A DNA stretch of 64,000 nucleotides from Pocillopora verrucosa. Lineage: Eukaryota; Cnidaria; Anthozoa; Scleractinia; Pocilloporidae. The notes beneath the pieces are model-generated. The model had not been told where the DNA came from. It saw nothing but the letters and a program-made list of their open reading frames with translations, and did no database searches. The stretch is taken from NCBI RefSeq assembly GCF_036669915.1, contig NC_089324.1, positions 14,238,631-14,302,630 of the forward strand. The letters run 5' to 3'. Of the stretch, positions 38,713-56,381 are shown piece by piece; position 1 is the first letter of the stretch, and every line of letters starts with the position of its first letter. The position numbers and the translations under genes were made by a program.

Positions 38713-41700
38713 ATGGGATGCATAATGTCTAAAAGGACAGGCAGAAGAAGAAGAAACAACGCTAAACACAAGAATGAAGAATCGGCTACTGCCCTGAATG
38801 AATCAGAACACATATTGGATCTTGGAAAGTTTGAAGAGATGAAACGACCTCAACTTCAGACGTTATGCAAACGGTTTGGACTTAAAGCTTCAGGAAAGGC
38901 AAGAAATTATCCTTATGAATCTTTTCCTCTGTGGACCTAAAGTAACAGTTATATTACAGACAGTTTTCTCTTTATAGGTATAAGTAAAATTAAAACTTAG
39001 TGGGATAAAAGGGTGATTTCCTACTATAGATAAAAAAAATATTTCCAAATAGAAAAATATGAAAAAATCCCTGACTTTGTCCTTGTTACGAAATTATTTT
39101 CACCCCTTCAAAGTGAATGATTTTACTCTTAAAGTGTTAATATACTGAAATTTGCATCTTCTTAATTCAATCTAAGTCTTTCAGTTGATAATTCATCATC
39201 ATAATGCGAAATGCACACATGTATGGAAAAATCTGACTTCGTCCTTGTTAAGAAATTATTTTCATCCCTGTTAAGTGAATGATTTATAAAAACTCTTAAA
39301 GTGGTACAGTAACTAATGCTGAAATTTACATTTCTTCAATTCAATTCATGATAATGCAAAATGCGCACAGGTCCAAGCCAATAGATGGCTAAACTTTGAC
39401 AGTTTTGTTATGCCTATTGACAGAGCACACACTATATTTAACCCTTTAAATCCCATGATTGACTAAGACAGAATTTCACCCAACGATATCAATATCAAGT
39501 AGACAAGAATAAAGAAAAATATTAATTAGGGAATTATTAGTTGATCTAATACCAAATTCCTCGTAGCTAACATCAGAGGTAAGGAGAATTACTTGTGAGA
39601 TCTTAGTGGTGAAAGAAGTAAAGACTAGATCATGAACAAGGTGTCAGCAACTGACAGGAGAGCTTTAACTCTATTTCTGTCTCTCCCTTGTCTCATTAGA
39701 ATACTGAGCTTGTTGAGAGACTTAAAGAACATGTCAGCAACAACAACAACAACAACAACAATACAGAGGAACAACCATTGTCATCAAGTTCTCACCAAGA
39801 AACAGAGGAACCTGAAAAGCCAGGCAATGTTACCTTTGAAAAAGCTGACAGTCATGTACAGGAAGTGAATGAACCCAAAAAACTAAGCAATGTTACTTTT
39901 GAAATAGCTGATAGTCAAATTCCCACAGATGAACATGTCCATATTAGCAGTAATGATAGTAGTAGCTGTGACTCTCCAAGTAGTCATGTAGACCTTCAAG
40001 CAGGTGACGTGAATGGGTGTGTCAACCCAGACAGCACAGTAGAAGCAAATGATCAAGCAAATGCAGAGCAAGCAAAGTCTAAACCTGATTTGTCTTCAAG
40101 CAGAATTTTGAAAGACCTGAACTGCACAGACCCACCTTCCACAGGTCAGTAAAACGATAAATGTGTAACAGCTAAAATTATTTTAAGTGACACTAAAACC
40201 TAATTTTGCAACATATTTTCTATAATTCCAATAATTAGAAACCCTGAAAATCTAGCTAATTTAATGGATAAAGAATTACATTGTAGCATGAGAACCTGAC
40301 ATGTTTGAACCTACATGTGTGTGACTGACAGCATTCAGACAAAATTTTGCACGTGCTATCTATAGTCTCATTTTCCAAACTAAACCTTAGCACCAAGGAG
40401 TGACTCAAATCTAATGTCTTCTTACAATATCACCCCTGGATCACACAATTAAAGTCACAAGAATATAAGAGATTATCACAAAGTGAAGGAGCTCTCCAAA
40501 AAAATTCTTCTTGTCAGCATCTTAGGAAATGTGTGGGGAATGGTACAGAGAATATGTATACTGATGTTAAGCAGGTAATTTAGTGTTAACAACTGAGTTG
40601 AAAACATTAATTAGCCACTGTAAAGGGTTAAAAAGCTGACGTTTCGAGCGTTAGCCCTTCGTCAGAGCGATTGGGTTAATGCTTGAAACATCAGCTTTTT
40701 ACCCTTTACAGTGGCTAATTTACGTTTTCAACTCAGATGTTAACACTAAACTACCTGCTATACTCTCCCACTGATGCAGCACCACAGTTTCTTTAGAAAC
40801 TTACTCCTTTATACTGATGTTAAGTAGTAGAGGGTTGAAAACATGATTGTCTTACCTGTATCGCTAAAAGATTTAAGAGGAAGTAGTAACTAGTGCTTAC
40901 AGCATAGACAACTTAGCTTATCAATGGCCTACAAACACTTGATAAACAAAAAAAGTTATATCCATCATCAAAAAATTAGCTCATGTGTCAATGCGTATTC
41001 ATTGAAATATGAAATATGTGGGAAGTTTAAAACACAAAAGATGCATATTGTAAGGGTTGCTGATGGCTTAGCTCAGGGCAACTGCAGCTTCTTAAGTGCT
41101 TCATATAGGCTTACAGCTGCCAAGTGAATCAATTACATTGTAACATTTTTAAACATTGTTAATGTGGCACATACTTTAGAGAGATTCCCTCTGTCAAGCT
41201 TCAATGTGCTTGAACAATAATATTGACATCAGCATGGAAAACAGGAATATGAAGCATTCTCAGAAAACTGAATTTAGTCTGCAAATTTCATTAAGTAACA
41301 GATAGCTAAGTTATTACATTGATTTATAACCTTTACAGGTCAAAACAGTGACACAAAGAAAGCTAAATTGGATACTTGTACCAAATGGTGCGTTGTTGAA
41401 GGCCTTTTTAAACAGGAAAACAAGGCCGTGTGGAAGAAGATTTTTCTTTCTGGAGGGAAGGCTATGATTTCCAACAGTTTTGGTAAAAGAGTCCCTTTTG
41501 TTTTGGAGCCATGTGGATTGATGACGCCCAAAGACTGTGATGACAACTATATCTGTGGAAGCTGTGTCAGGGACAATGAAGTAGCATTAAGATGCAAAGG
41601 TAGCTCAAGAGTTGTGCATTCTTCTGCTGTGCCACAAGAACCCGATGATGCTGGTAAGGTTGTTACCATTTCTTGTCCTCCCAAGCATTCAGTTACTTTA

Positions 41701-43720
41701 AGTTGTAATGGCCAACTCAGAGTGGCTGATAAATGTTCCTGTTTATTCCTGGATTCTGCATGGGGCTTGTTATATTTTAAAAATCTCAGACATCTGTAAT
41801 TGGGAGAAGCCTGGCACAAAAAAAATTAAAAAACTAAATATGAATTCTTTAATGTCGTACATGAAGGAGGCAGGTACTGACTCTTGAATATCCAGGTGCT
41901 GGTATATACACCAACTCTGTCTTTTAATGAGAACTCTGCCTAGAGAAGTATTCTGCTCCTCTCAGTCAATCATTGGATACTTGTCCATTGCCTATAACCC
42001 TGAGACACTTTTTCCCTGTAGCTTTTCTCCAACCAGTTATACTCCAGATATCTGATATTTCTCCTCTTCTTATCAACTTTCTGTTTGGAAAAAAAAGTGA
42101 TATTTTAAGGAGAAATTCCTCTGAGGACATTTCAGGGAGTGAAAAAGTTAACTATGGATCCTTGTTCTTTTTTGGCTTGTTCTTGCCTGACTCCCCCAAG
42201 GAGTTTCAATGCATAGCAGCAAATCGTAAGGAAAGCTTAGTGAAATGCAGGGGGGTAACCTTTCAGTGGATTGGCATCCCATCCAGGGAAGAGTAATAAT
42301 ACTCCTTGTTGCTTCATACTACAGAAACCAGAATAAGCGCTAACTGAATGGGTCTGACTCAGCTGGAGTACAGATGTTACTTTTTTTACCTTGGGAATAG
42401 ACAGACAAAGCTTTATTTGTATAAATCATTTAAATTAAATTATAATAATTATTTTCTTATTTCACAGTATTGTTGATTGATTAGAAAATAATGTTTTTTT
42501 TTTCCTTAGTATCAAGATGGTTATGTGACACTTTGTGAACCATACTAAACTATGAAATAGCAGTCCAAAAGTGACATGCTTACCTGTACAATGTAGATTT
42601 TTCATTAAACTTGGTAAGTTTCTTTGCTCATCCTGAATGCTCTGTTTTTTTTTTTCACTTTAGAGCCCACTGCTGTATGCAGCACACCCTTATCATCCAG
42701 TCACAGTCTGCTGACAAGCTTTTCAAGATCAGGCTCAGTGAAGCGCAAGAGGAGTGAAGATGCAAACAGTTCTGTAGTGAACTCATCGACTGACTTTAAC
42801 CAAATGGAGAAGAAACCGAGGAAAGATACCATTGTCAGATCTGGTAGCAGCACTCCAGCAAGCCCTCAAGTTCGCAGAGCCAGGGGAGAACAGCTGGTGT
42901 TACCCAGGTGATGATAATGTTACCTCTCCCAAACATCTTCCATCTATTTTCCAGCAACAAGTTATGAGAATAATGATTTTAGATATATGAAATTCATATC
43001 TTTGCACTGCGGTGAAGAAACAAATTTAAGAGATCCTTGCAGCTAAGAACACCACTGAACTAGTAGTTGAAAATAGGACCTGAAAAAAATCTTGTACGGG
43101 CCTGAATTTTTTCAGGTCCTATTTTAAACTACTATTTCAGTAGTGTTCTTAGCTGCAAGGATCTCTTAAATAAGTTATGAGAATTTTTTTAACTCGTCAG
43201 CTTAGAGTTTTTATCTCCAATTTGGTATCCTCTTCAAATGATCTAACATCAAGTTATTATAATTGTTAAATAACTTAATCTTATTGAATGTAACTGCTTC
43301 ATCCTTTCAACCCCTAAGGCTGACTAGCATCTATTTTCTCCTCACAACGTCACTGCTGAATCAAAAACTCAAGTCGTGAGAATAAAAGAAATGATCACCA
43401 CCTTAAGAAGATCATGATTATGAGACAAATTCTCCTTGTCAGTACCATAGGAATTGTATTAGAACAGTATGGAGAATATGCAAACTGATGTTAAGGACTC
43501 ACAGGTTAATAATCATTTTTTCAGAAACCTCACGAGACCATGGCAACCAAAGAAAACAACAAAGACATCACAGAGTGTTGTTAGAGAAGACACAGAATTT
43601 GCCAAAAGAGTTGAGGAGATTATCAAAAAAACACAACCAGGCTCAGAAGAAGAAATGTTCATGATAATGTTTTCTAAATCTAGCAGGATTCAACGTTCAC
43701 CCACTAAGACTACTGAGTAA
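38713..43720 (+). CDS. SAP-domain protein with DPPA2/4-like C-terminal domain, 5 exons, 461 aa
   Basis: Exons 38713-38898, 39700-40144, 41339-41653, 42664-42907 and 43525-43720 are in phase and total 1386 nt; intron 1 is GC-AG. A basic N-terminus is followed by a SAP motif at about 40-76 (KRPQLQTLCKRFGLKASGK plus NTELVERLKEH across intron 1), a DNA-binding helix-turn-helix. An 8-Asn run and two repeats of E-P-x-K...NVTFE-x-ADS follow. Exon 3 encodes WCVVEG...W..., GGKAMI, GKRVPFVLEPCG and DDNYICGSCVRDNEV, the pattern of the DPPA2/DPPA4 C-terminal domain, which in mammals works with SAP in chromatin regulation of pluripotency. Likely nuclear localisation signals are VKRKRSED and KKPRKD (exon 4). 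A second Met is four codons in. Exon 3 could instead end at an upstream donor at 41597 (AAAG|GTAGCT, same phase). Homology to DPPA2/4 is inferred by eye. Confidence 0.75.
38899..39699 (+). other. GC-AG intron inside the SAP domain
   Basis: Exon 1 ends AGGAAAG followed by GCAAGA rather than GT. The acceptor is CTCATTAG. Only this boundary joins the two halves of the SAP motif in frame (LKASGK to NTELVE). It contains a family D element at 39439-39622. Confidence 0.75.
39439..39622. repeat. Family D element
   Basis: Starts AACCCTTTAAATCCCATG. Shows attagttgatctaatacca uninterrupted, which serves as the empty site for the nested MITE at 11614-12075. Confidence 0.8.
40381..40838. repeat. Family A element split by a C element
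   Basis: The A sequence runs to 40571 and resumes at 40810. The break carries a 15 bp duplicated target. Located in intron 2 of the SAP gene. Confidence 0.85.
40572..40809. mobile_element. Family C palindromic element, full copy with 15 bp target duplication
   Basis: TATACTGATGTTAAG occurs at 40557-40571 and again at 40810-40824. The 238 bp insert contains a hairpin with arms such as gttgaaaacattaattagcc and its near complement, a core cgtttcgagcgttagccc, and a tail gcaccacagtttctttag. No open frame. A long target duplication suggests LINE-type target-primed insertion. Confidence 0.85.
42972..43171. mobile_element. Hairpin element H with 13 bp target duplication
   Basis: AAGTTATGAGAAT is at 42959-42971 and 43172-43184. 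The 200 bp insert has arms taagagatccttgcagctaa and ttagctgcaaggatctctta spanning most of its right part. The duplicated copy of this locus near 49620 has a single ggttatgagaatt and no insert. Located in intron 4 of the SAP gene. Confidence 0.85.
43303..43506. repeat. Family A element
   Basis: Landmarks caacccctaaggctgacta, aagaaatgatcaccacc, gagaatatgcaaactgatg and ctcacaggttaa. The same element is present in the duplicated segment at 49736-49942, so it predates the duplication. Confidence 0.8.
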
Positions 43721-44678
43721 TGTTCTTATTTAAGTGAGATTGCATCAAAGTTTTAATTTGCAGGAGGTTTTGGCAGCCTACAACTTTGATAAATATTGTT
43801 TGTAAACAAGATTGTAACATAGCTTCATCGAATGAGTAAACAGCAGTAATTGAAATATTTCAAGTTGTAGCCTAAGCATCCAATTTGACTCAGAATTTCT
43901 CATTCCATCTAATTGTAAAACATTCTTTTCAAAGTAATTCCTATTTTCCTTACAATTTTTTGAGACTTTATTTTAAGTACATTTACTGTTAAAAGTTTAT
44001 TGTCCTAACTTTTAGATCCTGAATTTTATTTTGATGTTGTAGTTTCCTTGTTAAATTTGTTTAGTTACAGATCAAAAACATAGAGAGGACGTTACTCTAG
44101 ATATTTTTTTCATAAGTGTTTTGTAACTGAAAAAAGCCTGTCTTGCACTTAAAATGGGAAGGTATATTTGAAGCTCAGTGAAGGATGCAAGTCAGAAGAA
44201 AATTTATTTTTAGGAACAGTGAAATTATAAACTGTGAATTGTTTTCTCCCACAATAATGGGTATAGTGAAAGCCAAAAAAAACTTTCATGCACTTTAGGC
44301 TGAAATTATTATAATCCTGTGGAGAATTCAAGGATTCAAGAAAACTGCTTTTAGGAGTGCTTGTTTGAAATTCATTACAATCCACAGGAGTTTCAATAAA
44401 AGTCAGAAACTGGCATTCTTCCACCACCTTTAAGAGATCTTACTTCTTTCAGTTTTTCTGAGAATAGTCTCTCATGTGGGGTTCTCCTGACAGCCCCTTT
44501 CCAGGCAGAGCCACCTATTGCAACATCAGCTGCCTCTTATGGACAAAGTTATTGAAACCTCTGAATCTCTTTGATTTTGAACCTCTCATCCTGGTTTAGA
44601 TGAGTCAATTTAAAACAATTCTTAAAGTTATGCTTTTTTTTAACAAAATGAAGTGCATTTTGAGTAATGAACTCTCGT

Positions 44679-44684
44679 AATAAA
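44679..44684 (+). terminator. Candidate polyadenylation signal of the SAP gene
   Basis: AATAAA about 960 bp after the stop codon, conserved in the duplicated 3' flank. Another AATAAA lies near 44394 (tttcaataaaagtcag). Which one is used cannot be told. Confidence 0.35.
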
Positions 44685-45208
44685 ATGCCTTGTTTAAAAA
44701 TCTACAAAATCTATTTTGTGGTGTTATTTATGAATGAATTTCTGTGAGATGTGCCCTGTTCTCTGGAATAAGTAGATTAGAAAATAGAAACATAGGGGTT
44801 TGTCAAATAGTTGTCTTTTCAGATTGGAAATGATTTTTTTTCCTTTGAGGGGCTTAAATGAAGGTGGTTTGGATTTATTATATTTTCCTAACACCTTACT
44901 GGTTCTGATTAAAAACCAAGGTAAAAGTGAAGTCTCTATTTAAGTCAAGAGGCCCATCTTGCCGGTGTTTGTCCAGGTTTCCCAACTACCCCATTGCATG
45001 GGATGCTTATAACAACTCTTCTTTTAAAGTTCCATTAGACCTTTTTTAATGGCCAAAAAATTTTATGATGGTGACTGAAATTAGATATTGCCTCTAATTT
45101 GCATCTGGTAGGTGAATACGTAGAGTAAGAATGTATGAAAAGTAATGACTCATTCAAACGTTGAACTAAATCCTCCTACTTGAGTGAATGGTATACCTGT
45201 AAGGATTC

Positions 45209-45346
45209 TTAACCCTTGAACTCCCATGAGTAACCAGGACAGAATTTCTCCTTGCAATATCAATACAATATCAACCAGATCAGTGATGAGAATGAAGAAA
45301 AATTTCAATTTAGGGATAATTAGTTGATTTGATGCGAAATTCGCAC
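45209..45346. repeat. Family D element, truncated
   Basis: Begins TTAACCCTTGAACTCCCATG and follows the D sequence to agttgatttgatgcgaaatt, then breaks off. Confidence 0.7.
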
Positions 45347-45473
45347 TCTACGATTGTTATTCGAGGATTGTCGATTCATTTATTTTCATTCATTAACGAG
45401 GTCGGCTTTTCTTCCCAGTAAAGGGCTATTACGTTTACATGATAAACAAAATAATACATGGTTTCTTGTAGAA

Positions 45474-45570
45474 ATGGAATTTCTCTACTCGTGTACAACT
45501 CGACATCTCACTCGTTCGCTGCGCTAACTCGTGAGCTATCGAGTTGAACATTCGAAGAGAAATTCAATAT
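45474..45570. repeat. Inverted-repeat element
   Basis: Arms GGAATTTCTCTACTCGTGT and GAAGAGAAATTC, with inner ACAACTCGA and TCGAGTTGAA, around a central tcgttcgctgcgctaactcg. A palindromic MITE-like unit. Confidence 0.6.
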
Positions 45571-45599
45571 TTAGGCGCGCCCAAGAATTATTCACAATT

Positions 45600-46360
45600 T
45601 TATTTCAAAGCACGAGCATTATCGCGCCAAGAACGAAAGTCACATCAACTTCATAGGCAAATGTCGCAGGGAACTTGTATGGTGTGTTAGTTATAATATT
45701 TCTGAAAATAACAATGGTTCATATAGTTGACACAAGTGTATAGTTGTTTAAATCGAATTTTTTTTGTATTCAAACTACACCGAAAAAACAGGCGGTCGGC
45801 ATATGAAATCCCATTTCAACATGTTTCGAAAATTAAATGCTTCATTCGAATTGTTTAGATATTTAAATGACTTTCACAAGTTTATAGTTTAAACATCATC
45901 ACACATGTTCTTCAAATTCTGAAAGACATAACTATCGATCCGCCATCAAACTAAAGGAAAAACCTCAACAACAATTTTCCTTGTACCATTTCTAAAAATA
46001 CCTAGCGTTTAAAGTTTAGAAGTTGAGCTATGCTTGGCCACAAGAATTTAGCGAACCCCTCCTAACATAATTGTCTTCGAAGGTGTGGGTAAACTCAGGA
46101 AAAAGAAAATAAGAAACTAAGTGAACTTTTGTATAGACATGAGCATTGGCACTTAGCTTAGAAACACAAACCGTGTATTATCAAAAAGATCGAAACCGAA
46201 GATTCTACGAAAGACAAGTATACCATCTAGGGGAAAAGAAGGGGATGAGCTCAACCCAGATGGGTCACTAGGCTTTTAAACACCCTTTGACTTCAAATCT
46301 CTCCCCCCCCCCCCCCCCACACTCCCCTCCCCTCATCTTAGTACCCCGCTAAACTCTTAT
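45600..46360. repeat. Left arm of a large inverted duplication
   Basis: Segments such as gaaatcccatttcaac, tgcttcattcgaattgt and cacaagaatttagcgaacccctcc reappear reverse-complemented, diverged, at about 56900-57450. The motif tctacgaaagacaagtatac...gatgagctcaacccagatgg also recurs at 48080-48150 and, inverted, at 55800-55870. The arms extend into the beta-trefoil exon copies. Confidence 0.75.
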
Positions 46361-46451
46361 CTGTTAAATCTCCAGACTTCTCTGAGCTATTTTCCTGCAA
46401 TACCTTTGCCAAATGGAAATGTATGCAATTAATGATGTATTTACCCTATAG

Positions 46452-47758
46452 CAGACAAATGGCGAAATCTTTAAGCACAGTCTCAAAATGTGCAGAGAAT
46501 TTGCACGTGGTCTGACTTTGGTTTTCATTGAGGCAAGTCTGAGAGACGACATGTAGATAGATAGATAGATAGTTTATTATCAAATAAAATACATTGCAGC
46601 CATAGGCTGAATTGCGTGCTTTTCACAATCATTGATTATATAAGACTATATAAGACTACCTATTACAAAAATGCTAAGACCTAAATAAAATTACTAATAT
46701 AACTAATATAGCTAATATACAGCAGTGGAATAGCTAAAAATCTAGGTTAGCACACGCGCACATAGCCGGGATAAATGAAAATTTAAAACGGTCAGTGCGA
46801 AAGCGCGGCATGTTAAAAACGCGCCGGTGTCTATTATTGTAAGCTGAAAAATGCCTATCTCAAATTATATAATTTGTGAGATGGATTTGAGACAGACAAA
46901 AACAGATCCGTAAATAATTTCATGCGTCTGTCATAGAGCGAAGCTAAACCTTGCCTGTCTAAAGAGTCATGGTATGACAGTTCTGGTGAAATGATGGATA
47001 ATGTGCGTCTTTGGATCCTTTCAATGGTATCACTAAGATACGCAGGTAACGCATGATGGAATATTTGTGCGTAGTATTCCAGAACAGGACGTATAGTTGT
47101 ACAATAAAAATTAATTATGTCATCCGCTGGAACGCAGGCTCTCTTTAGGAGGACTAAAAAGTATAATCGTTTGTTTGCTCTTTTTATAACATCATTGACG
47201 TGGTTATTCCACTTAAGGTTACACGAAATAGTCATGCCTAGGACCCTAGCTCTCTCTACTGTCTCTAATACTTTGCCATCGACCAAGAGTTTCTGCCTTT
47301 TGTAGTCGATATGGGTGAATGGCAGATCTGTTTTACCAAATGCAATCGGTGAGAACCAAAAAAGTAGGTCTATCAATAACATTCTTACAATTAAAACTAC
47401 AGAAATAATGGCACCTATGCTACAATCAAAATAGTCAACACCTTGGAATAGCATCACAATCCTTAACCCTATGATCCTAAGGGGTGACTTTCATCTAATT
47501 TCTCACTACAGAACTTTATCTAAATCCCACACTATGGTCACAAGAAGAGGAAACATTGCACGAAAATACAAGTAGAAAAGAAAGTTTCTTGCCTTGTCTT
47601 GACCTGTCAATATAATATTAATGTGGTTTACTAAACAAGTGTCTTGTTTATCACTATACTTTTCAACAGCTCATTTTGAGATCCACCCTGCTGTGGAGCA
47701 GGATCATCAAGTTGTCATTTCAGAACATGAAAGTGGTAGTGATCTGGACATAAACGAG
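46452..47758 (+). pseudogene. Diverged beta-trefoil gene copy, broken by a LINE
   Basis: Homologous to exons 2 and 3 of the minus-strand gene at 53233-56381. The first exon starts after ACCCTATAG at 46452, runs open for about 33 codons with weak similarity to the intact exon, is interrupted by the LINE at 46553-47309, and resumes WVNGRSVLPNAIGENQKS. The second exon is 47670-47758 (FEIHPAVEQ...QVVISEHESGSDLDINE), shortened by about 13 codons but with intact splice signals. No terminal exon follows. Probably non-functional. Confidence 0.7.
46553..47309 (-). mobile_element. 5'-truncated LINE 3' end (CR1/L2/Jockey-like reverse transcriptase C-terminus)
   Basis: The minus-strand frame contains ARVLGMTISCNLKWNNHV, LKRACVPADDIINFYCTTIR and ERIQRRTLSIISPE, typical of the C-terminal part of non-LTR reverse transcriptases. 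The 3' end has a GATA-type microsatellite tail (46553-46573 on the plus strand). The first ~50 residues of the 200-codon open frame are not LINE but antisense of the host exon. Confidence 0.8.
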
Positions 47759-48029
47759 GTATGATGGCAGAAAATTGCCTGTTAATAGTTGTATGTCAGG
47801 GCTAAATCAAACATCAAAAATCAAATGTGTCCTTGTCTTGGACACTTTTTTTATGGACTTATTGAATGAATGAGCAAGGATCTTACTCACTCACCCAGAA
47901 ACTCAACACAGAAAACTGGATAGATATTTCTTTATGTCCCATTATGAATTTGCAGTGCCATCATCAACCATAACATGATAGAAATCATGAGCTAATCATG
48001 TAATTGCTATATGATAGCCAAGGATAATC

Positions 48030-48895
48030 TTCAGACATAGACTGTACTTAGAAAGCAGAGTAGGGGCGGGGTGGAATCTACGAAAGACTAGCTTACCATA
48101 GAGGGGAAGAGAAGGGGATGAGCTCAACCCAGATGGGTCACTAGGCTTCTAAACACCACTCCAAATCTCCCCCCCCCCCTCCCCTCATCTGAATACCCCT
48201 CTAAACTCTTATCTGTTAAATCTACAGTTGTCCCTAAGCTATTTTCCTGCAATACCTTTGCCAAATGTATGCAGTTAATGATGTATTTACCCCATAGAAG
48301 AAAAATGTGAGAATCATTGACCACAGTGACAGAGAATGGAGCACTGCAGATCATCAGCTTTACTCTCGCAACGAAGAATTACTCTTTTCCAAAAAGACAA
48401 GTAAGTAGAATAGAAAGTTTCTTGCCTTGTCTGGACCAGTCAATATAACGTTAGTTTGGTCTACTAAACAAGTGTCTTGTTTATCACTATGCTTTTCGAC
48501 AGCTTATTTTAAGATCCACACTGTCGTGGAGCTTGACGAAAACAACTAACCTCATCAAGTTGTCATTTTAGAGCATAAAAGTGGAAGAGTTGTGGCCATA
48601 AACCAGGATGATGACACTGTCATTGCTAAGGTATGATGGCAGAAAATTGCTTGTTAATAGTTGCATGTCAGGGCTAAATCAAAAATCAAATGTGTCCTTG
48701 TCTTGGAGATTTTTTAATGGACTTATTGAATGAATGAGCAAGGATCTTACTCACTCACTCAGAAACTCAACACAGAAAACTGGATAGATATTTCTTTATG
48801 TCCCATTATGAATTTGCAGTGCCATCATCAACCATAACATGATAGAAATCATGAGCTAATCATGTAATTGCTATATGATAGCCAAGGATAATCTG
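48030..48895. repeat. Inverted duplicate of 54790-55910
   Basis: The text from tagaaagcagagtaggggcg through the exon copies to agaaatcatgagctaatcat matches the reverse complement of 55910-54790 closely. The copy has lost part of the first exon and the intron behind it. Confidence 0.85.
48298..48630 (+). pseudogene. Beta-trefoil gene copy 2 (truncated exon, nonsense codon)
   Basis: The first exon starts at 48298 after CCCCATAG and matches the intact exon through about 48380 (NVRIIDHSDREWSTADHQLY), then breaks off. The second exon, 48503-48630, has the same length (128 nt) and near-identical sequence as 55050-55177, but an AAA-to-TAA change at 48547-48549 stops it. No third exon. Confidence 0.85.
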
Positions 48896-48929
48896 GCAAG
48901 AGTCTGATGATGACCTTCTGAGTAAAAGC

Positions 48930-49125
48930 TAACTCCTTAACTCTCAAGATCTGATTGTTAACTCTCCAGTCTAGCTGCTACACATTTTTTTGTAAATCAG
49001 TTATGAGAATTTGGTGTGAAATTAAGATGAAAACTTCTACCTGATAGGTTTGAGTCTTCTAGTTACCTTATCAACATGATAGGAAGAAGTTGCATACTGG
49101 TCATTTTTGGGAGTTAAAGGGTTAA
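48930..49125. repeat. Family B element
   Basis: Begins taactccttaactctcaag and ends TTTTGGGAGTTAAAGGGTTA with B landmarks between. Lies between two broken gene copies. Confidence 0.75.
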
Positions 49126-49471
49126 CAATGACCTCCATTATGAGGCCTCAAATATGCCTTCCCATTTTAAGTGCAAGATGGGCTTTTTTCAGCTACAAAA
49201 CATTATATGATGTTACTCACGCTACAATCAAAGTAGTCAACACTCAGGAATAGCATCACAAACTTAACCCTTTAACGCCAAGGAGTGACTCACATCTAAT
49301 TTCTCACTACAAAATCACACACCAATGTCACAGGTGAAAGAAACATTACTCTTGTCCTAAATGACAAATAAGTAGAAAAGAAAGTTTCTTGCCCTGTCTG
49401 GACCAGTCAATATAAAATTAGTCTGGTTTACTTTAAACAAGTGTATTGTTTATTACTATGCTTTTCAACAG

Positions 49472-50149
49472 CTTCTTTGAGATCCACACTGTCATGGCGC
49501 TTGACAAAAATGAGAAACTTTGTCAAGTTCTCATTTTAGAGTATAAAGGGCCAGGGGAGAACAGCTGGTGTTACTTAGGTTATGAAAATGTTACTTCTCC
49601 CCACATTTTCAATCTATTTTCTGGCAAACAGGTTATGAGAATTTTTTAAGTCATCAGTGGTTTCCTCTTCAAATGACCTAACATTAAATTATTATACCTG
49701 TTAAATGTCTTAATGTCATTGAATGGAACTGCTTCACCCTTTAACCCCCAAGAGTGATTAGCATCTAATTTCTCCTCACAGCATCACTGCTGACTCAAAA
49801 GCTCAAGTCAGGAGATTAAAGGAAATGATCACCACCTTAAGAAGATCATGATTATGAGACATTCTCCTTGTCAGTACCATAGGAAATGTATAGGAACAGT
49901 TGGGAGAATATGGAAATGAGAGTTAGGGACTCACAGGTTAATGATTATTTTTCAGGAACTAAATAGAACAAGCAAAGAGAACGACCAAAGAGAACAACAA
50001 AGACATCACAGAGTGTTGTTACAGAAGAATTTACGAAGAGAGTTGAGGAGGTCATCAAAAAAACACAACCAGGCTCAGAAGAAGAAATATTTTTAGTGTT
50101 TTCCAAATCTAGCAGGATTCAACGTTCATGCTCTAAGACTACTGAGTAA
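49472..50149 (+). pseudogene. Chimeric pseudogene: beta-trefoil exon fused to the 3' end of the SAP gene
   Basis: 49472 to about 49547 is a third copy of the beta-trefoil second exon (FEIHTVMALDKNEKLCQVLI). At about 49548 it switches to the end of SAP-gene exon 4 (GGGGAGAACAGCTGGTGTTA) and then follows SAP intron 4. The copy of SAP exon 5 is 49956-50149, with an early in-frame TAA after GAAC and small deletions. Neither parent reading frame survives. Confidence 0.85.
49736..49942. repeat. Family A element in the duplicated segment
   Basis: Orthologous in position to 43303-43506 in the parent SAP gene; landmarks aacccccaagagtgattag and gaaatgatcaccacctta. Confidence 0.8.
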
Positions 50150-51420: not shown

Positions 51421-51425
51421 GTAAG

Positions 51426-51918
51426 CAAGGCGTGAAATTTCCACTAATACAGGCGCCACTGCACTAAATTTTTCACTTTGGTGACCAAATCCTGAAAATT
51501 AGTCGCCAAATTGGCGACTAGAATGTTTCATCGTAACCTTACCTAGAGATATAATGAATAAAAAGATAAATCCGCGGCAAACTTCCTCGTTAAGTTTGTT
51601 TCCAAAACGCAGCACATGCATCTCGATCGATAACTAGTCGTCATTTTGGATTAAGGCGAGCTTGAACGTTGCATATCATCCATCCTAGTGTCCACTTTGT
51701 AGTACGTTAAAGAACTTGGCGAAATTTATGCACAGCCCCAACTTCATTATGCATCCATATATTGGGGCTTTACTATTCGGTGTATCACCAATAAGATGTG
51801 CATGCATAATTAAGTATAGGGCCGTGTTGAAATTTTTCCAACAACATTTTTTGAATTGGCTGCCACTTTGAAGAATTTAGGAGCCAAGTGGCTATCAGAA
51901 AAAAAAAATCACGCCCTG
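51426..51918. mobile_element. hAT-like non-autonomous DNA transposon, copy 1
   Basis: The ends CAAGGCGTGAAATTT and AAAAATCACGCCCTG are near inverted repeats starting with the CAGGG-type end common in hAT elements. GTAAG flanks both sides (51421-51425 and 51919-51923), a shorter duplication than the 8 bp usual for hAT. It holds the inverted pair attagtcgccaaattggcga. No transposase frame. Confidence 0.6.
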
Positions 51919-53232: not shown

Positions 53233-56200
53233 TTACACTACAGAAAACAGACTTTCCTGCTGCTTGGGTTGTACTTGGGAGGTGTTCATTGGATTTCCTT
53301 CCGGATCAAAGCCAAGGATGCGTTGCTTATCTTTGAGGTAGGACTTGAAGTAATACAGCTCACTGCCAGGTTCCTTAGCCACTTTGTAAAACAACACCTC
53401 AGGACTGTCTCTTTTAACTTCTTTAAGGGTGTCACTTTGGCTTGGAGGTTTAGGAAGTTCCTGTTGAAAAGAGCAGTCAGACTCTGAGTAAGAGTAGCTG
53501 GGGAAATGACTGCTGTTGGTGACAGTGGCTGATGTTGTGACAGCCTCATTGGAGATCATTGTTCACCCTTTAAGTCTCAGAAGTGATCAATGTGCAACTT
53601 CTCCCAATCATGTTCATACACTATCCAGTAAACAGATAATGAGAAGACTCAAACTTATCAGGTAGAAGTTGTCATCACACCAAATTCTCATAAATGATTT
53701 ACAAGAAAATGTGTTGCAGCTAGATAGGAGAGTTAACAATCAGATCTTGAGAGTTAAAGGGTTTAGCTTTTGCACAGAAGGTCATCATCAGACTTTGACT
53801 GAGGTGTCAATGTGCATGTCATATCACCCAGAACATTCCTTTTCAGTAAAGTACTCTGTCTGTGATATTCAAAAATAAATAATTTGTAATATGCAATATA
53901 ACAATCAGGCATATTAATGCTAAATTCAAATAGAGTACAGTTGTTTGCACTCTCCCCACCCCTTCCCCCTGCCCTCTTCCTTAAAAATTCCTACATCTAA
54001 ACACCTGGATGTGACTGAAGTATAATATTAGCATTCCAAAGTCATCAGGACCCCTTGTTAACTCTCAACTCCTAAGAGTGATGAGCATGTAATTTCTTAT
54101 TACAATATCACCCCTGAATGAAGAAGTAAGGTCATATGAATAAAGGAATGATAACAATGTCAAGATGCTCTTGATCATTAAACAAATTCTCCTTGTAAGC
54201 ACCTTTTGAAATGTATAGAGAACAGTATGGAGAATATGCATACAGATGTTGGGGCGTAAAGGGTTAATATCCCCTGGTTTTTTAAGGGCATGAAATTTTT
54301 TTTTTTTCTGATAGCCACTTGGCTCCTAAATTTTTCAAAGTGGTAGCCAATTCAAAAAACGTTGGTCGCTGTTTTTAAAAACAAACAAAACCTTTTTTTA
54401 CGCTGTCAGTGTTCTAGATAGACACTCCAAAATTAAGTAAGAAAAAACATCTTCAACACGTTACGAAGTGGACACTAGGATGGATGATATACAACGTTCA
54501 GGCTCACCAAAATCCAAGATGACGTCTAGTTATCGATCGAGATGCATGTGCTTCGTTTTGGAAACAAACTTAACGAGGAAGTTTGCCGCGGATTTATCTT
54601 TGCAAGTCTTTTAATTCTCTATATATCTAGGCAAGGTTATGATAAAGCGTTCTAGTCGCCAATTTGGCGACTAATTTTCAGGATTTGGTCGCCAGGGTGA
54701 AAAATCTAATCGCATTGGCGCCTGTATTAGGCGCAATTTCACGCCCTGTTTTCATGTAGAGTCTCCACTAAGCAGACAGTCTCTGTCTAAAGATTATCCT
54801 CGTCTATCGTAAGCAATTATATTGTGAGCTCAAGATTTCTATCACATTATGGTTGATGATGGTACAGTAATTTCAGAATGGGACATATAGAAATATCTGT
54901 CCAGTTTTTTTCGTTGAGTTTCTGAGTGAGTGAGTAAGATTCTAGCTCATTCAATAAGTCCATTAAAAAATGTCCAAGACAAGGACACATTTGATTTTTG
55001 ATTTAGCCCTGACATGCAACTATTAACAAGCAATTTTCTGCCATCATACCTTAGCAATGACAGTGTCATCATCCTGGTTTATGGCCACAACACTTCCACT
55101 TTTATGCTCTAAAATGACAACTTGATGAGGTTTGTTGTTTTCGTCAAGCTCCACGACAGTGTGGATCTTAAAATAAGCTGTCGAAAAGCATAGTGATAAA
55201 CAAGACACTTGTTTAGTAGACCAAACTAACGTTATATTGACTGGTCCAGACAAGGCAAGAAACTTTCTATTCTACTTACTTGTCTTTTTGGAAATGAGTA
55301 ATTTTTCTTTTACTTGTAACTGTAGTGTGTGATTCAGGTATGATTTCGTTGTGAGAAATTAGATGAAAGTCACCCCTTAGGCACAAAGGGTCAAAGATTG
55401 TGATGCTATTCCAAGGTGTCGACTATTTTGATTGTAGCGTAGGTCCCATTATTTCCGTATTTTTGATTGTAAGAATATTTATTGATAGACTTACTTTTTT
55501 GGTTCTCGCTGATTGCATTTGATAAAACAGATTTGCCATTCACCCACATGTAGTGACCTGGAACCTCTCCTTCTTCGTTGCGAGAGTAAAGCTGATGATC
55601 TGCAGTGCTCCATTCTCTGTCACTGTGGTCAATGATTCTCACATTTTTCTTCTATGGGGTAAATACATCATTAACTGCATACATTTGGCAAAGGTATTGC
55701 AGGAAAATAGCTTAGGGACAACTGTAGATTTAACAGATAAGAGTTTAGAGGGGTATTTAGATGAGGGGAGGGGAGGGGGGGAGATTTGGAATGGTGTTTA
55801 GAAGCCTAGTGACCCATCTGGGTTGAGCTCATCCCCCTCCCTTCCCCTCGATGGTAAGCTAGTCTTTCGTAGATTCCACCCCGCCCCTACTCTGCTTTCT
55901 AAGTATGTGGTGGGATGGTCTCCACAGCAAGAGGCACGCTGAGCAAATTTTGTCCATCGGGCCATGCCATGAGGTAGAGTAGTGCCGATATACGACAACT
56001 ATAAAATACTGTTTTCGGATTTGAACTTCCAGTTTTCATATGTGCAAGAGCGTAATTATCCAAAACGAGCCTTTCAATTTTCAATCTACCAGAAGTAAAA
56101 ATGTCTTAAAAGCCAATAATTTACGAAAAATGTAGATTTTCACCGAAATTAAGTGATTCGGTTGCTCATGGTGGAAATGGGTTTAAAACATACTCTATTT

Positions 56201-56381
56201 GACTCTATCATAAGCGCTGAGCCGAAGTATTTTGGAAGTCTGATTGCATTGCCATTCAATTATGCTCGGGGATAAACACACAACGATGTGCTTTCGAAGG
56301 TGAAGCGAAGGTTTCGTAGAATATTTGAAATCTAAATTGAATATTTAAACTTACATTTTCCCCACACTCTTTGGTCTCCAT
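53233..56381 (-). CDS. Putative interleukin-1/FGF-type beta-trefoil cytokine-like protein, 4 exons, 179 aa
   Basis: Exons in order: 56355-56381, 55495-55651, 55050-55177, 53233-53460, all GT-AG and in phase (540 nt). The protein starts METKECGENKKNV, has no signal peptide and no membrane segment. From about residue 42 it shows repeating short beta-strand segments: HYMWVNGKSVLSNA, FKIHTVVEL, HQVVILEHKSGSVVAINQDD, TVIAKE, then VLFYKV...YYFKSYLKDKQRILGFD and a terminal ESLFSVV. The order and spacing recall the IL-1 family (LFY...G...F-x-S...P) and FGFs (V-x-I...SG...A-x-N). The closing part does not satisfy the strict IL-1 signature. Lack of a signal peptide and small size fit IL-1-like proteins, which leave cells by unconventional routes. 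The intact exon copy contrasts with three broken plus-strand copies. Exon 1 (9 codons) is the least certain. Family assignment is an inference. Confidence 0.5.
53563..53764. repeat. Family B element
   Basis: Begins tcaccctttaagtctcag and ends GAGAGTTAAAGGGTTTA with B landmarks between. In the last intron of the beta-trefoil gene. Confidence 0.75.
54059..54267. repeat. Family A element
   Basis: Landmarks aactcctaagagtgatgag, atcacccctgaatgaag, gagaatatgcatacagatg and gcgtaaagggttaa. In the last intron of the beta-trefoil gene. Confidence 0.75.
54284..54748. mobile_element. hAT-like element, copy 2 (inverted relative to copy 1)
   Basis: The left end AAGGGCATGAAATTTTT and right end GCGCAATTTCACGCCCTG match the ends of 51426-51918 in reverse orientation. 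The interior matches too (gatagccacttggctcc, gaaacaaacttaacgagg, attagtcgcc). It lies in the last intron of the beta-trefoil gene. Confidence 0.65.
54790..55910. repeat. Right arm of the inverted duplication, containing intact beta-trefoil exons
   Basis: Reverse complement of 48030-48895 plus the part deleted there. Homology stops near 55910, where actttctaagtatgtggtgg departs from the plus-strand copy. Confidence 0.8.

Follow-up and report, generated by a model that had tools for sequence, protein, structure and literature searches.

A predicted leaderless, FGF-like beta-trefoil gene family of stony corals and its probable relation to fibroblast growth factors

No homologue of interleukin-1 (IL-1) is known outside vertebrates, and IL-1R-like genes occur in Cnidaria, according to one review (PMC9020223). 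Whether a coral might encode a ligand of this kind is a question raised by a gene in a 64,000-nucleotide stretch of Pocillopora verrucosa (NCBI RefSeq assembly GCF_036669915.1, contig NC_089324.1, positions 14,238,631 to 14,302,630; hereafter the window), for which a preliminary description made from the sequence alone had proposed a beta-trefoil of the IL-1/fibroblast growth factor (FGF) type. We confirm that a genuine stony-coral gene, with introns, is present in the window, and its small product is predicted to be FGF-shaped. That this product is an FGF-like trefoil and not an IL-1 is very probable; that it serves as a released signal is a tentative suggestion. The explanation as a whole, a leaderless FGF-like trefoil family acting as a released, non-canonical signal, is assigned a probability of about 0.6.

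The gene is encoded on the minus strand (no strand had been given previously) and spans 3,149 bp. Its four exons are separated by GT-AG introns of phase 0, 1, and 0 after exons 1, 2, and 3, respectively, and translate to exactly 179 amino acids:

56355..56381, minus strand: exon 1, METKECGEN, phase 0 at its end, donor GTAAGT
55495..55651, minus strand: exon 2, 157 nt, encoding the first beta strands, phase 1 at its end
55050..55177, minus strand: exon 3, 128 nt, the middle exon of the trefoil, preceded by a phase 1 intron and followed by a phase 0 intron
53233..53460, minus strand: exon 4, 228 nt including the stop, last strands; match to PF00167 positions 70-123 (17.5 bits)
53461..53559, minus strand: open frame upstream of and continuous with exon 4, MISNEAVTT..., MISNEAVTTSATV..., 99% like the protein P0015

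The four in-phase exons of the preliminary description were thus borne out, both by the splice sites and by 22 relatives, the best of which, P0001, is 96% identical over the full 179 residues. Neither of the two contigs of P0001 exceeds 1,096 nt, less than the 3,149-bp gene, and neither can therefore contain its introns; the source assembly was probably made from RNA, with the joined exons present as such. Even the short first exon has recognizable counterparts, METKE resembling METKEN in Stylophora, MDVKDM in Oculina, and MEVKHT in Desmophyllum. The strand motifs quoted earlier are present in the product, and its leaderless character also held, no hydrophobic start being seen in 17 family proteins (10-residue hydropathy at most 1.01, a measure applied without a dedicated predictor or a control). 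The open frame at 53461-53559 has counterparts in two C13 paralogues and may represent an alternative start or short isoform, or else intron read-through or intron sequence common to recent duplicates.

Models predicted for the window protein and for a paralogue both adopt a beta-trefoil over approximately 126 residues, with FGF18, FGF8, and FGF1 as the nearest solved structures, and FGFs make up all of the best 50 VIA-align matches for each model. IL-1 entries are absent from these and from the best 50 Foldseek matches of the first model. With the second, Foldseek returned FGF8 at E 1.4e-6, together with IL-1beta (31bi; E 4.1e-5, rank 39) and 4kc3_A (E 2.9e-5, rank 25), which we take to be IL-33. 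The predicted fold is accordingly closest to FGFs and is also compatible with IL-1, being common to many families; PMC5861070 treats FGFs as related to IL-1 in structure but not evidently otherwise. In a viral structure library, the first four matches were FGFs of iridoviruses and baculoviruses, which is informative on fold only. When the PDB was searched by sequence, neither the window protein nor the A2 family profile had a relevant match, the best E value being 0.37 in both cases.

PF00167 is the best Pfam match of the window protein and is found at E 1 or below in six of 13 A2 family members (best 0.002), whereas PF00340, the IL-1 family, gave no match to the window protein at E 10; a genome search with PF00340 was also without matches, but its controls were likewise unmatched, which makes it uninformative. 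Aligned by hhalign with eight human FGFs, the coral family matched end to end and colinearly over 121 columns (E 1e-4, probability 57.8), compared with 40 columns at E 0.12 for seven human IL-1 family proteins. A hidden Markov model (HMM) of human and coral FGFs gave 15 of the 19 family rows higher scores than any of 200 shuffles (at most 7.4 bits), the best row reaching 21.2 bits and the window protein 12.9, with human IL-1s at up to 9.7. The corresponding IL-1 model placed five of the 19 slightly above its best shuffle (7.3 bits at most vs. 4.2). The pattern PS00253, presumably the IL-1 signature, occurs in none of 19 family proteins and in four of seven human IL-1 family members, and a relaxed form likewise separates them (0/19 vs. 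7/7). PS00247, which we take to be the FGF signature, is also absent from all 19, and is present in all eight human FGFs and in two of 13 coral FGFs. Of the original proposal, therefore, the trefoil and its FGF side stood, in the predicted models and in a profile match that is the best available yet below cut-off, and the IL-1 half was not supported. IL-1 membership was rejected, the profile, Pfam, HMM, and signature tests having given it no support.

Searching the P. verrucosa genome with PF00167 gave 69 exon matches, 41 of them above cut-off. The FGF complement is unusually large, with matches on C1, C5, C7, C9, C10, C13, and C14 and tandem clusters on C1, C5, C9, and C10. Nineteen FGF loci were examined, and in all 14 in which the middle exon fell within the fetched DNA, splice sites were available for phase 1 before it and phase 0 after it, as chosen from candidate sites without transcripts. 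The window gene has two core introns of these phases at nearly the same places; its exon 3, at 128 nt, is the counterpart of a middle exon of 101-113 nt in 13 joined coral FGF genes (104 nt in nine). When the 13 coral FGFs were aligned with the family by MAFFT, the first intron of 12 shared the family's column and that of the other was displaced by one column, an agreement favored by the trimming of coral FGF rows at that intron. The second lay one residue upstream of the family's in 11; in the remaining two, where the long loop was gapped differently, the displacement was 15-16 residues. Human FGF genes have an intron arrangement like that of coral FGFs and the family.

The family departs from FGFs in the residues for receptor and heparin contact. 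At the column of FGF2 Y103, which with E96 we take to be an FGFR contact (numbering likewise), all eight family rows carry serine and none tyrosine or phenylalanine, one of which is found in 13 of 13 coral FGFs; glutamate at the E96 column is found in none of the eight and in eight of 13 coral FGFs. At FGF2 positions that are presumably the known heparin-touching basic sites, only 2 of 40 family cells are basic, whereas coral FGFs have a basic residue in 49 of 65 cells and human FGFs in 29 of 40. The C-terminal basic segment of FGF1, FGF2, and FGF12 (6-7 lysines plus arginines, seven in FGF12) is missing from the family, which has 0-3 such residues there, no signal peptide is seen, and the loop before the LFYK strand is longer than in FGFs. 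Given the altered contact residues, standard FGF action is unlikely.

Several observations weigh against deriving the family from FGFs. Sequence similarity to FGFs is marginal: the PF00167 score of 17.5 bits lies below the cut-off of 24, and the window protein also lacks the FGF signature, receptor contacts, and heparin residues, which, with the two Foldseek matches to IL-1 structures, tells against a clean FGF identity. None of the 69 PF00167 exon matches lies within the family clusters. An FGF versus IL-1 control in hhalign was nearly as good as the family–FGF match (E 0.0014, 43 columns). Without first exons the signal fell, to E 0.0013 over 27 columns for human FGFs, E 0.017 over 84 columns for coral FGFs against the family core, and E 0.071 for IL-1, with the FGF–IL-1 control at E 3.6e-4. 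The family's own HMM scored FGFs at 7.5 bits at best, IL-1alpha at 5.8, and the best shuffle at 5.4. In a tree, the family (support 100) fell outside FGF and IL-1 rows alike, a placement left open by supports that were given within the family only. Intron phases are much alike in the human IL1B gene and may thus be unable to tell FGF from IL-1, and the dN/dS (ratio of nonsynonymous to synonymous substitution rates) values above 1 described below may reflect relaxed constraint.

The database search that returned the 22 relatives (E 1.9e-110 to 5.5e-19) was extended by profile searches yielding 61 proteins (E 1) and 57 proteins (E 10). Those carrying an organism name are all from stony corals (Pocillopora, Stylophora, Oculina, Desmophyllum, Porites, and Acropora) and are labeled uncharacterized, hypothetical, or unnamed protein; a large share of the rows are fragments, many lack an organism name, and the method needs shared 5-residue words, so the restriction to corals is provisional. 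A literature search, which left most subscription papers outside its scope, found no description of the family, and LOC113665788, LOC111327610, LOC111327566, LOC114951322, LOC113676350, and SpisGene7838 are not mentioned in the papers searched. The available portions of two coral papers make no mention of fibroblast growth factor or FGFR (PMC9897584) or of FGF (PMC10236652). The family, known so far only from stony corals, is probably derived from or sister to FGF genes rather than IL-1.

Within P. verrucosa a search with the last exons gave 21 matches, and the family profile finds exon sets in four clusters, beyond which genome searches with two paralogue types found no other:

C13 14.29-14.31 Mb: family cluster, genome profile search
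C6 25.26-25.29 Mb: family cluster, genome profile search
C10 6.73-6.77 Mb: family cluster, genome profile search
C13 8.97-8.98 Mb: family cluster, genome profile search
63940..64000 of the window, minus strand: where the next paralogue's last exon (C13:14302570-14302854) ends, the remainder lying beyond the window edge; 95% identical to P0005 over 20 residues
46201..49547 of the window, plus strand: partial and degenerate copies in inverted orientation, corresponding to exons 2 and 3 and to introns, at 79-98% nucleotide identity

Besides the window gene there are 15 exon sets, 12 with all three core exons and the remainder incomplete. Phase 1 after exon 2 is available through a consensus-type donor in 10 of the 12, and phase 0 after exon 3 through a consensus donor in four of the 15, the others having no listed site of that pattern. 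Three copies of the C13 cluster, free of stops and frame breaks, gave dN/dS point estimates of 0.58, 1.11, and 1.16 at dS 0.16-0.19. In the degenerate copies at 46201-49547 exon 2 is shortened and the frame is interrupted by a stop, and no exon 4 match was found among them. P0022, a protein predicted for P. verrucosa, aligns with pieces spread over 6.5 kb of degenerate copies of this gene (window 43542-50093, plus strand) and looks like a gene model assembled on pseudogene pieces.

Tandem growth, fast change, and the missing leader together fit either a defense-type signal that damaged cells release or a protein of the FGF homologous factor (FHF) type that acts in the cytosol. On the first account, which we prefer, the protein would be made in the cytosol without a secretion signal, be released through damage or an unconventional route, and act independently of heparan sulfate on a partner outside the standard FGF–FGFR contact set, within a fast-changing defense or tissue-interaction repertoire. 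On the second, a real possibility if on balance a doubtful one, it would resemble FGF11-14, never be secreted, and bind a channel, kinase scaffold, or other cytosolic partner; against this, FGF1 and FGF18 score equally or higher in structure comparison, the FGF12 basic segment is not matched in the family, and tandem expansion with high dN/dS would be unusual for a housekeeping scaffold. A bolder form of the released-signal account, rather unlikely in our estimation, would make the family a third class of beta-trefoil cytokines in stony corals: leaderless, FGF-derived, independent of heparan sulfate and FGFR, tandem-expanded, fast-evolving, and released on damage as are IL-1 and IL-33. If so, its core introns, of FGF type and near those of IL1B, would make it an example of how an alarmin similar to IL-1 can arise from an FGF-type gene, or else a survivor of a condition close to the FGF/IL-1 split.

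It is improbable that the array consists of diverged paralogues without important function, kept open by recent duplication: degenerate copies with stops would suit that explanation, as would the two of three comparisons in which dN/dS is about 1 or higher, but the gene is intact across the six named genera, 15 columns are invariant in 21 aligned rows (some fragments), and the three C13 copies are undamaged. Least probable, if only by a little, is a true invertebrate IL-1 acting on an IL-1R-like TIR receptor, for which the cnidarian receptors, the leaderless product, the long loop before the LFY strand shared with IL-36 and IL-33 especially, the Foldseek matches, and the few IL-1 HMM scores above shuffles can be cited, but against which the weak, local profile match and the missing PF00340 match and signature speak. 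This uncharacterized, repeatedly duplicated family may act as a cell signal of a new kind. As a leaderless FGF-type family expanded in reef corals, it allows a shift of trefoil signals from growth factor towards alarmin to be put to the test, and its members, which now carry only the uncharacterized label, are candidates for a part in the wound or immune responses of corals.

Elsewhere in the window, a match to the Dppa2/4 conserved region (PF14047) lies at 41323-41796 on the plus strand (E 6.5e-13); the Dppa2/4 family is known from vertebrate germ-line factors. Parts of the introns of the window gene recur elsewhere in the window at 69-96% identity, among them 54462-54751 and 51423-51701, 53555-54267, and several other places, and these repeats are mobile-element-like.
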